Source: Candidatus Brocadiaceae bacterium
Lineage (GTDB): Bacteria; Planctomycetota; Brocadiia; SM23-32
Direction of reading: 5' to 3'
Length of the DNA stretch: 51,169 nucleotides
NCBI GenBank assembly: GCA_012728835.1
Contig: JAAYEJ010000008.1
Location: forward strand, 1 to 51,169
Translations under genes and position numbers: made by a program
Part shown: piece by piece, positions 12,516 through 15,178 of the stretch
Position numbering within the stretch: position 1 is the first letter of the stretch
Layout of the letters: each line of letters starts with the position of its first letter
The notes under the pieces: generated by a model
The model's database searches: none
Told to the model about the DNA's origin: nothing
What the model saw: only the letters and a program-made list of their open reading frames with translations

Positions 12516-13880
12516 ATGGACGACCACGCAAACGTGCTGGTGGCCGCCGAAGACAGCGAAACGGCCCAGGCGGCCGGCCGGGCACTCCAGGAGGCCGGCC
12601 ACGCCTGTACGGCCGCCCCCGGCCTGGACGCCGGAATCGAGGAAGCCCGCTCCGGCCGCTATGACGTCGTCGTGGTCGCCCTCGAAGCCGCCGGCGAACG
12701 AGGCTTCGCCGTCCTGGCCGCCGCCCGCAACGGCAACCCCGACTGCCAGGTGATCGTCATCACCCCCCATGGCCGGGCCGACGAGGCCGTCGCCGCCATG
12801 CGCGCCGGCGCCCTCTACTACCTGGAAGCCCCCGTCAATCCCGCCGAACTGACGATGATCGTCGACCGCGCGGTCGAACGCGTGGCCCTGACCCGCGACC
12901 GCGCCCTCATGCAGAGCGAACTGACGCGGCGCTACGGGTTCGACAACATCATCGGCAGCAGCCGCCCGATGCAGAAGGTCTTCGGGCGCGTCGCGCAGGT
13001 CGCACGCACCAACGCCACCGTGCTGATCCAGGGCGACACGGGCACCGGCAAGGAGCTGATCGCCCGCGCGATCCACTACAACAGCGACCGCCGCCACAAC
13101 CGCTTCGTGCCCCTCAACTGCGCCGGCCTGGTCGAGACCATCCTGGAGAGCGAACTCTTCGGGCACGAAAAGGGCGCCTTCACCGGGGCCGTCAGCGCGC
13201 GCGTGGGCCTGTTCGAATACGCCAACCACGGCACGCTGTTCCTCGACGAGATCGGCGACATGCCCCTGGCCAGCCAGACCAAGCTGCTCCGCGTGCTGGA
13301 ACACGGCGAGATCGTCCGCGTGGGCAGCAACGAGCCGATCCGCGTGGACGTCCGCCTGGTGGCCGCCACGAACCAGAATCTGCACCAGAGCATCGCGGAC
13401 GGCACGTTCCGGCGCGATCTGTTCTACCGCCTCAACGTCGTCACCATCCGCCTGCCCGAACTCAGGGAACGCCAGGGCGACATCCCGCTCCTGGTCGACC
13501 ACTACCTGCGCGAGTTCGCCCGCGCCTACGGCAAGTCCATCCGCACCCTCAAGCCGTCCGTGCGCAAGGCTCTCTACCGCTACGCATGGCCGGGCAACGT
13601 GCGCGAACTCCGCAACTGCATCGAGCACATGGTCGTGGCCACCACCGACGACATCCTGGGCGAGGACGACCTGCCCGACTACATGCTCGAACAGGCCGGG
13701 GCGAGCCTTGCCGAACCCTCGCTGGCCGCCCTGGCCGGCCAGCCCCTCGAAGAGGTCGAGAAACGCCACATCGCCCGCACCCTGGAACTGGTCGACGGAA
13801 ACCGGGAGAAGGCCGCCGAACTCCTCGGAATCGGCGAGCGTACCCTCTACCGGAAGATCGAGAAGTACGGCCTCCGGTGA
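12516..13880 (+). CDS. NtrC-type sigma-54 activator with degenerate receiver domain
   Basis: 454 residues: receiver-like domain (about 1-120), sigma-54 AAA+ domain (about 145-380), Fis-type HTH (about 410-454). The AAA+ part is complete: Walker A GDTGTGKE, GAFTGA loop that contacts sigma-54, Walker B TLFLDEIGDM, and the AWPGNVREL block. The receiver keeps the acidic pocket (AAED) and a switch Thr (VITPHG), but the phosphoacceptor Asp is Ala (YDVVVVALEA) and the conserved Lys is replaced (YLEAPVNP instead of LxKPF). It should therefore not be activated by a histidine kinase; another signal or constitutive activity is expected. No kinase gene is adjacent. Confidence 0.94.
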   Translation: MDDHANVLVAAEDSETAQAAGRALQEAGHACTAAPGLDAGIEEARSGRYDVVVVALEAAGERGFAVLAAARNGNPDCQVIVITPHGRADEAVAAMRAGALYYLEAPVNPAELTMIVDRAVERVALTRDRALMQSELTRRYGFDNIIGSSRPMQKVFGRVAQVARTNATVLIQGDTGTGKELIARAIHYNSDRRHNRFVPLNCAGLVETILESELFGHEKGAFTGAVSARVGLFEYANHGTLFLDEIGDMPLASQTKLLRVLEHGEIVRVGSNEPIRVDVRLVAATNQNLHQSIADGTFRRDLFYRLNVVTIRLPELRERQGDIPLLVDHYLREFARAYGKSIRTLKPSVRKALYRYAWPGNVRELRNCIEHMVVATTDDILGEDDLPDYMLEQAGASLAEPSLAALAGQPLEEVEKRHIARTLELVDGNREKAAELLGIGERTLYRKIEKYGLR

Positions 13881-13942
13881 CCTCCGGCGTGCGCAAAATG
13901 TTCCGACTCTTCGGCCCGCATCTGAAAAAAAGGGACACACGC

Positions 13943-13971
13943 TTGCCGAGCGACCCCGGATGTGGTAGTCT
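13943..13971 (+). promoter_or_regulatory. Possible upstream promoter of the RNA locus
   Basis: TTGCCG (13943-13948), 17 bases, TAGTCT (13966-13971). It would start a longer transcript near 13978 that includes the hairpin GGCGAT/ATCGCC (13986-14003) and a CCTAAG/CTTAGG pairing (14003-14031) before the downstream hairpins. Confidence 0.35.
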
Positions 13972-14073
13972 ATGAATAGCGGAACGGCGATGACGAAATC
14001 GCCCTAAGTCGCACGCTCATTGATGCTTAGGCAAAACGCGAGAAGAAGAGGTGGCACGGGACAGTGGCTCGTC

Positions 14074-14103
14074 TTGACACTGGCATGCTCTTTGCTCTAT
14101 TCT
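14074..14103 (+). promoter_or_regulatory. Sigma-70 promoter of the candidate small RNA
   Basis: Perfect -35 TTGACA (14074-14079), 18-base spacer and TATTCT (14098-14103). It lies in a 458-base gene-free gap and points at the three hairpins beginning at 14126. Confidence 0.55.
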
Positions 14104-14109
14104 GCATCA

Positions 14110-14240
14110 GCTGCCTGTCTCTTAGTCACGACGCTCCCACCTAATGATACAGCGTCGTGAGCTGTCGGGTGAGCGCCCCCCTCCCCGACAGCAGCCCCTC
14201 TTGCGGGTGGGCTCACCCCAGCCCACCCGCATTTTTCTTT
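14110..14240 (+). ncRNA. Candidate small structured RNA with three hairpins and intrinsic terminator
   Basis: The gap 13881-14338 has no credible protein gene. From the TTGACA promoter at 14074 a ~130-base RNA would consist of three back-to-back perfect hairpins: TCACGACGCT/AGCGTCGTGA (14126-14160, 15-base loop), GCTGTCGGG/CCCGACAGC (14161-14192, 14-base C-rich loop) and GCGGGTGGGCT/AGCCCACCCGC (14203-14230), the last followed by ATTTTTCTTT, a textbook terminator. The loops contain CCCACCU and CCCCCCU, which could pair with Shine-Dalgarno sequences; that is inference. It does not match the cores of RNase P RNA, tmRNA, SRP RNA or common riboswitches as I know them. A leader/attenuator of the downstream ABC gene is the alternative. 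Confidence 0.55.
14203..14240 (+). terminator. Rho-independent terminator
   Basis: Perfect 11-bp stem GCGGGTGGGCT / AGCCCACCCGC (14203-14213 and 14220-14230), 6-base loop, then ATTTTTCTTT. The strongest intrinsic terminator seen in the window; it ends the candidate RNA and sits 98 bases before the ABC gene. Confidence 0.85.
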
Positions 14241-14338
14241 GGCGCGTCCCGCGACCCCCCCACGCCCACCGGCATGCACGGGCATGCCCGCACACGATGG
14301 CCCCTTCGTCGTCCTCAAGCCGCCACGGGAGCACCCCG

Positions 14339-15178
14339 ATGGACCGCGTCGTGCTCAGCCTCGAAGAGGTGACCTTTCGCCGCGCCCATGCCCGGGTCCT
14401 CCACGGCGTCTCCTGGACGGTCCGCCGGGGCGAGCACTGGGCCGTCCTCGGGCCGAACGGCGCCGGCAAGACGTCCCTGATCATGATCGCCACCGGATAC
14501 CAGCCCGCCAGCACCGGCCGCGTGTTCCTGCTGGACGGCTACTTCAGCGAGATCGTGCTCCCACGCGCCCGCGAGCGCGTGGCGCTGGTCAGCGCCGCCC
14601 TCGGTGACGTGATGCTCAAGCACCGCGGCGCCACAACGGGCCTGGAGGTCGTCCTGAGCGGCCGCTATGCGTCCCTGGGCTTCTACGCACGCCCGGAGCC
14701 GGAGGAGATGGAAAGGGCCCGCGCCGTCCTGCGCCGCATGGGCCTCGAGCACCTGGCCGACGTCCGATACAGCCTGATGTCCACCGGACAGCGCCAGCGG
14801 TGCCTGATCGCCCGCAGCGCCATGGCCGACTGCGAACTGGCCATCCTGGACGAGCCCTGCGCCGGGCTGGACGTGGCCGCCCGAGAGGACCTGCTGGCCG
14901 CCCTGGAGGCCGCCTGTCGCGAACGCCCCCACGTGCCCCGTGTGCTCGTGACGCACCACCCGGAGGAGATCGTGCCGAGCATCTCGCACGTGCTGCTGCT
15001 GCGCAGCGGACGGTCGGTCGCCGCCGGACGCAAGGAGGACGTGCTGACCGAACCGAACCTGGAGGCCACCTTCGGCATCCCGCTGCGCCTCGTGCGCGAA
15101 CGCGGACGCACGTGGATCATCCCGCGCGGGGGTGACGGGCGCCCCTGCCCCGAGCCGGACCCACCGCGGCCCGGGTAG
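14339..15178 (+). CDS. ABC transporter ATP-binding protein (ModF/YlmA-like, orphan)
   Basis: 279 residues, one nucleotide-binding domain: Walker A GPNGAGKTSL, signature region SLMSTGQRQRCLIARS, Walker B LAILDEPCAGLD and switch His in VTHHPEEI. The STGQ signature and HHPEEI segment resemble the ModF/YlmA group, ATPases found without an obvious permease. No transmembrane partner gene is adjacent, so a role in transport is unproven. ATG 14339 is preceded by GGGAG; longer in-frame starts (such as 14297) give a low-complexity extension and lack a ribosome site. A terminator lies just upstream, so it needs its own promoter or read-through. Confidence 0.85.
   Translation: MDRVVLSLEEVTFRRAHARVLHGVSWTVRRGEHWAVLGPNGAGKTSLIMIATGYQPASTGRVFLLDGYFSEIVLPRARERVALVSAALGDVMLKHRGATTGLEVVLSGRYASLGFYARPEPEEMERARAVLRRMGLEHLADVRYSLMSTGQRQRCLIARSAMADCELAILDEPCAGLDVAAREDLLAALEAACRERPHVPRVLVTHHPEEIVPSISHVLLLRSGRSVAAGRKEDVLTEPNLEATFGIPLRLVRERGRTWIIPRGGDGRPCPEPDPPRPG

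Follow-up and report, generated by a model that had tools for sequence, protein, structure and literature searches.

A structured RNA gene behind an NtrC-family activator gene

The window, by which we mean the whole 51,169-nt stretch of DNA analysed here, contains a gap of 458 nt (13881-14338) between the stop codon of an NtrC-family sigma54 activator gene and the start of the next gene at 14339. We predict in this gap a small RNA gene that has a promoter and a terminator of its own. The features of the locus, all on the + strand, are as follows:

12516-13880, + strand: gene for an NtrC-family sigma54 activator (bEBP), directly upstream of the RNA
13943-13971, + strand: possible distal sigma70-like promoter TTGCCG-N17-TAGTCT, weak here
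14081-14095, + strand: predicted sigma54 -24/-12 promoter TGGCATGCTCTTTGC (GG-N10-GC; TGGCAT-N5-TTGC), overlapping TTGACA-N18-TATTCT
14107-14240, + strand: small RNA gene of about 130 nt, predicted +1 at about 14107, 3' end in the T-tract
14109-14125, + strand: conserved single-stranded 5' tail AGCTGCCTGTCTCTTAG
14126-14160, + strand: hairpin 1, 10 bp (stem 14126-14135/14151-14160), loop core CCCACC
14161-14192, + strand: hairpin 2, 9 bp + 1-nt bulge + 3 bp (9-bp stem 14161-14169/14184-14192), loop Y-GCCCCC, the most conserved part of the RNA
14193-14201, + strand: conserved, C-rich single-stranded linker AGCCCCTCT
14202-14239, + strand: hairpin 3, intrinsic terminator of 12 bp (stem 14202-14213/14220-14231), loop CACCCC, T-tract

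A sequence-only reading of this DNA had described the 458-base gap, three back-to-back hairpins and a U-tract, all of which are present, the third stem having 12 bp here. The minimum free energy of the 135-nt stretch is -62.9 kcal/mol compared to -35.9 +/- 3.7 kcal/mol for dinucleotide shuffles (z -7.35), with none of 200 shuffles equally good. A terminator scan finds hairpin 3 as the sole terminator-like site in the 458-nt gap, with T5CTT directly 3' of its stem (14231), and the intrinsic terminator proposed in that reading is borne out by this hairpin and its T-tract. As a separate observation, the 5' end GCUGcCUGUC (14110-14119) could pair with GACAGCAGC (14187-14195) on the 3' side of hairpin 2; both parts are conserved and their pairing is a possible alternative fold.

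Conservation, covariation and distribution

Four other genera of the family carry the RNA stretch at 80-90 % identity (loci L002-L005), and a 41-base core also occurs in another family within the order. In 5/5 family sequences all 34 base pairs are intact, so that standard pairs occupy all 170 pair cells (100 %). Five pairs have changed on both sides compared to 1.2 in shuffles (0/500 shuffles as good), and in a control where the partners are slid by 1-3 columns pairing falls to 38-52 %. Among the five family sequences two of the two-sided changes are in hairpin 1 and three in hairpin 3. Hairpin 2 has 11 of its 12 pairs invariant within the family and one two-sided change in genome G009, which belongs to a sister family. 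Compensatory change had been suggested as the check on the proposed discrete, structured RNA of about 130 bases; these changes, together with the conservation and the terminator of its own, bear the proposal out.

Of the 10 genomes compared from the order, 6 match a covariance model of the RNA (R1; E 3e-17 to 6e-12), five of them among the nine of the family and the sixth being G009 (E 5.8e-12). No further genome is found among 75 of the class and 392 sampled across the phylum, in searches that used stricter filters than the search of the order, and viral contigs and plasmids also give no match. Three weak candidates were discarded: the match in G403 (L123, E 0.0045) has no C-rich loop and is a perfect hairpin unrelated to the RNA, that in L062 (E 0.33) falls in an apparent thiE-like coding stretch, and that in L086 (E 3.1) is too weak. 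The comparison of sequences therefore indicates that the RNA is real and, as far as the genomes searched tell, limited to one small order.

Four family genomes have no match to the RNA; for G006 this carries no weight, since its contig stops inside the upstream activator gene. In genus g3 three whole assemblies (82-87 % complete) have the upstream activator but no match to the RNA, and in G007 and G008 the activator gene is followed directly by unrelated DNA that lacks the RNA, a pattern suggestive of loss or replacement. Since the three g3 genomes keep the activator without the RNA, the activator must have other targets in that genus.

A conserved promoter element of the sigma54 type

The element TGGCATGCTCTTTGC is the only strict sigma54 match in the 51-kb window, where 0.14 are expected, and one of only nine in the whole genome of 3.07 Mb. 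The pattern GGCA(T/C)-N5-TTGC (GG-N10-GC) is kept in 5/5 genomes as an island within otherwise unalignable upstream DNA. The distance from the -12 GC to the conserved RNA block (AGCTG, 14109 here) is 12-13 bases in all five, and it is this fixed spacing that places the predicted +1 at about 14107. In four of the five genomes 0-1.6 % of shuffles contain an element as good; for the weaker element of G001 (CGGCAT) the figure is 28 %. The genome of the window itself encodes RpoN (G000 C29, E 1.5e-62), which is found in 11 of the 13 genomes searched. We therefore predict that the conserved promoter of the RNA is of the sigma54 type.

The sequence-only reading had instead assigned the RNA to the sigma70-like TTGACA-N18-TATTCT. 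These hexamers are present and score 10/12, but the other four genomes do not share them, whereas they do share GG-N10-GC, and for this reason the hexamers were rejected as the main promoter. A second promoter had been proposed at 13943. In the window this site is no better than chance (7/12 matches, shuffle P 0.64), but sigma70-like sites stand at nearly equal distances, 165-196 nt before the RNA, in the five family genomes, and three of them reach a P of 0.05 or less (G005, TTGACG-17-TACAAT, 10/12 matches, P 0.01; G004, 9/12, P 0.02; G003, 9/12, P 0.05), with a weaker site in G001 (8/12, P 0.175). By analogy with crcZ, discussed below, such a distal site could give a basal long form of the RNA.

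The upstream activator

The protein encoded at 12516-13880 has the Pfam domains Sigma54_activat (2e-71), AAA lid, HTH_8 (a Fis-type HTH) and a Response_reg receiver, and its AAA+ domain carries an intact GAFTGA loop. In 5/5 RNA-bearing family genomes the gene next to the RNA on its 5' side is the best counterpart of this activator, at a distance of 228-266 nt, with pnp farther upstream of the activator in the family and likewise in G009 and G011. This adjacent activator, the RNA's most informative neighbour, had been passed over in the sequence-only reading. Beyond relatives, its two best named matches are from Planctomycetota, the phylum to which Brocadia belongs, with 48-50 % identity.

The receiver domain in the window has no phospho-acceptor (D to A, with K to E). 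At the position of the phospho-acceptor Asp the five RNA-bearing genomes have A (window), G, G, G and S, and two genus g3 genomes have N, while G006 and G007 retain the Asp. Most family members also lack the conserved Lys of the receiver. G009, G011 and G012, which belong to other families, keep the Asp, the acidic pair and the Lys. Judging from these residues, a phosphorelay is unlikely to switch the activator in the RNA-bearing family; since the phosphorylation site is lost in the RNA-bearing genomes, the signal probably does not arrive through a classic phosphorelay. The gene at 12516-13880 can be described as a pseudo-receiver activator linked to pnp.

Words shared in the upstream DNA are not above shuffles, so that this search yields no candidate enhancer site for the activator. 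The same order of bEBP gene, sigma54 promoter and target is seen at two further places in the genomes compared: in G000 (C77) a GAF-type activator and a strict sigma54 promoter precede a glutamate-synthase-like gene, and in G005 (C108) an activator and a strict sigma54 promoter precede a flgB-like gene, both targets being named by reading the sequence. The first of these places is recorded as L126 (885-3170 and 3316-3330), the second as L127 (371-385). The two further loci support, without proving, the RNA as target of its neighbour, and the neighbouring activator most likely drives it.

Downstream genes and the copy in a sister family

The gene 3' of the RNA varies. It encodes an ABC ATPase in the window and a P-type ATPase in G005, it is metK in G001 and G004 (two genera; L002 and L005) while metK is not linked in the others, and in G003 it is a convergent spermidine-synthase gene. 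Because the downstream genes differ, the RNA does not appear to be the leader of the next gene, and because it has its own promoter and its own terminator it should act in trans.

In G009 the RNA is flanked by genes for a sodium:alanine symporter and a competence protein (L092 1442-1700, minus strand). A near-consensus sigma70-like promoter, TTGACA-N16-TATGAT, stands 152 nt before its hairpin-2 block, and a GG-N10-GC element looked for by eye near the RNA was not seen. The G009 RNA has a different terminator hairpin. Since this copy is located elsewhere and has a sigma70-like promoter, the RNA is older than, or separable from, its link to the activator.

Exposed loops, ribosome-binding sites and Hfq

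The exposed conserved segments are the 5' tail, loop 1 with CC(C/U)ACC, loop 2 with GCCCCCC and the linker AGCCCCUC, and in the family alignment CC[CU]ACC and GCCCCCC are invariant or nearly so. The sequence-only reading had placed CCCACCU and CCCCCCU in the loops. Both are present, but the U of loop 1 is private to the window genome, relatives having CCCACCA, CCCACCC or CCUACCC, and the last bases of the invariant CCCCCCU run of loop 2 close the stem.

That reading had also paired CCCACCU with AGGTG, which does occur before rpsA and dnaB. This pairing is not conserved because it needs the U carried by the window genome alone. When five exposed segments were compared with 20 start regions of the window, none consistently outpaired its own composition-matched scrambles, a sample too small to exclude targets elsewhere in the genome; with loop 1, 50 of 100 scrambles pair as well for rpsA and 70 of 100 for dnaB. 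A riboregulator with C-rich loops, as had been suggested, is the best mechanism available, but the ribosome-binding sites of the window give no pairing signal for it. The Hfq model (PF17209) finds 0/13 genomes, the controls being positive.

Comparison with known RNA systems

No Rfam 15 family reaches its gathering cut-off in the window, where tRNA and tmRNA are also absent; the earlier remark that no housekeeping RNA is recognizable here agrees with this. By control architecture, the closest analogue appears to be nla19/pxrR-pxr, then cbrB-crcZ and luxO-qrr1. In Myxococcus xanthus an NtrC-like regulator gene is followed, across a gap of about 260 bp with a sigma54 promoter, by Pxr, a triple-hairpin RNA of about 110 nt in a host without hfq (PMC5568312, PMC5684412). 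The locus described here shares the NtrC-like gene directly upstream, the sigma54 promoter and the three hairpins, but by its model (RF01812) the RNA is not Pxr (score 16.1 bits, E 2.1, where the cut-off is 80); pxrR moreover has a partner kinase, pxrK, and Pxr is reported only in myxobacteria.

CrcZ of Pseudomonas, in the cbrB-pcnB gap, is an RpoN-dependent RNA just 3' of the gene for an NtrC-type regulator, CbrB, which is barely dependent on phosphorylation (PMC8395346, PMC6296734), and crcZ has a second, weak constitutive source (PMC8395346). The position behind such a regulator, a second possible promoter and a regulator with little need of phosphorylation are shared, but CrcZ is 407 nt long, titrates Hfq/Crc through A-rich motifs and has no Rfam match here. 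Qrr1 of Vibrio is a sigma54-dependent sRNA adjoining luxO, the gene of the activator that drives it (PMC8043402). It differs in being divergent from luxO and likewise has no Rfam match here; with Hfq found in none of the 13 genomes, an Hfq-dependent sRNA of the Qrr type is not indicated.

Other likenesses concern the RNA itself. The Xanthomonas RNA sX13 has three hairpins with C-rich loops and represses targets with G-rich ribosome-binding sites independently of Hfq (PMC3771888). Three stable hairpins and C-rich loops are common to both RNAs, but the sX13 model (RF02232) gives 15.8 bits against 50. We know of no sigma54 activator linked to sX13. The closest Rfam look-alike over the full length is BjrC80 of Bradyrhizobiaceae (RF02354; 28.7 bits, E 4e-4), which shares the GCCCCCCUCC loop and a CCCC terminator loop. 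Its cut-off of 80 bits is far above this score, hairpin 1 aligns badly, and the likeness is driven by C-runs and the GC-rich terminator. As judged from its sequence, the RNA is a new family outside every Rfam family, with control and loops like those of known sRNAs.

Alternative explanations

An RNA whose C-rich loops bind an RNA-binding protein and so release the mRNAs bound to it, in the manner of CrcZ with Hfq/Crc, would fit the genomic logic of cbrB-crcZ (PMC8395346), loops that repeat one motif type, a nearly invariant hairpin 2 and the missing pairing signal in the 20 window genes. We consider such a sponge unlikely, for CrcZ titrates Hfq via A-rich motifs, whereas the loops here are C-rich and Hfq was not found, and about 130 nt is short for an RNA of this kind. 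To our knowledge no C-binding translational repressor has been described in these bacteria. It is quite unlikely that the RNA is transcribed constitutively by sigma70, from TTGACA-N18-TATTCT or from the 13943 site, with the sigma54 match and the activator being coincidental or minor. The proximal hexamers score well but are absent from the other four genomes, while 5/5 have GG-N10-GC at a fixed distance from the RNA, and of the nine strict sigma54 sites in 3.07 Mb one falls exactly here. What speaks for sigma70 are the distal sites at similar distances in relatives, the sigma70-like promoter of the G009 copy and the weak constitutive second source of crcZ (PMC8395346).

The location between two co-oriented genes and the terminator at its end would also suit a cis element, that is, a terminator region belonging to the activator mRNA, or else a leader or attenuator of the next gene. 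This explanation is very unlikely: the next gene varies in identity, and in G003 in orientation; the terminator ends the unit about 100 nt short of the start of the following gene; conservation sets in at the predicted +1, nothing conserved being found from the activator stop codon to the promoter; and the G009 RNA stands apart from the activator. We give almost no credence to a small protein-coding gene, such as the GTG frame from 14157, since loop 1 varies in length by 1-4 nt and the linker of G004 lacks 1 nt, which breaks the open frames that cross the region, and the changes track base pairs, not codons.

A candidate sigma54-controlled regulatory RNA

Taken together, the conservation and covariation of the RNA, its conserved promoter, its linkage to the activator, the presence of RpoN and the lack of a detectable Hfq suggest, with a probability of roughly 0.62, a sigma54-dependent, activator-linked, Hfq-independent RNA acting in trans by pairing C-rich loops with G-rich ribosome-binding sites. 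Because the conserved promoter is of the sigma54 type and the RNA lies directly behind a sigma54 activator gene, it is probably a signal-switched regulator like those of Myxococcus, Vibrio and Pseudomonas. The NtrC-type protein encoded directly upstream most likely remodels the closed complex at 14081-14095, whereupon RpoN polymerase would transcribe the RNA of about 130 nt (14107-14240). Three stable hairpins are predicted for this RNA, and Hfq would not be needed for its action. We infer that the C-rich segments conserved in its loops and linker (CCCACC, GCCCCCC and AGCCCCUC) pair with G-rich ribosome-binding regions, which would block translation of the targets.

We also entertain a more speculative and, on present evidence, doubtful history, in which control of the RNA passed from sigma70 to the sigma54 activator next to it, and the receiver of the activator later ceased to be phosphorylated. 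The outcome would be a kinase-free and Hfq-free sRNA switch serving as a lineage-specific global regulator, with an origin independent of Pxr, CrcZ and Qrr.

If the reading as a sigma54-dependent, Hfq-independent trans-acting RNA is right, it would add a new RNA family, with promoter class and likely activator named together, to the PVC group, for which as a whole a review counts 8 sRNA families compared to 345 in Proteobacteria (PMC9029176). It would also add one more, seemingly independent, example of an sRNA gene located behind that of a sigma54 activator, and RNA regulation could be studied through it in bacteria that lack a detectable Hfq.
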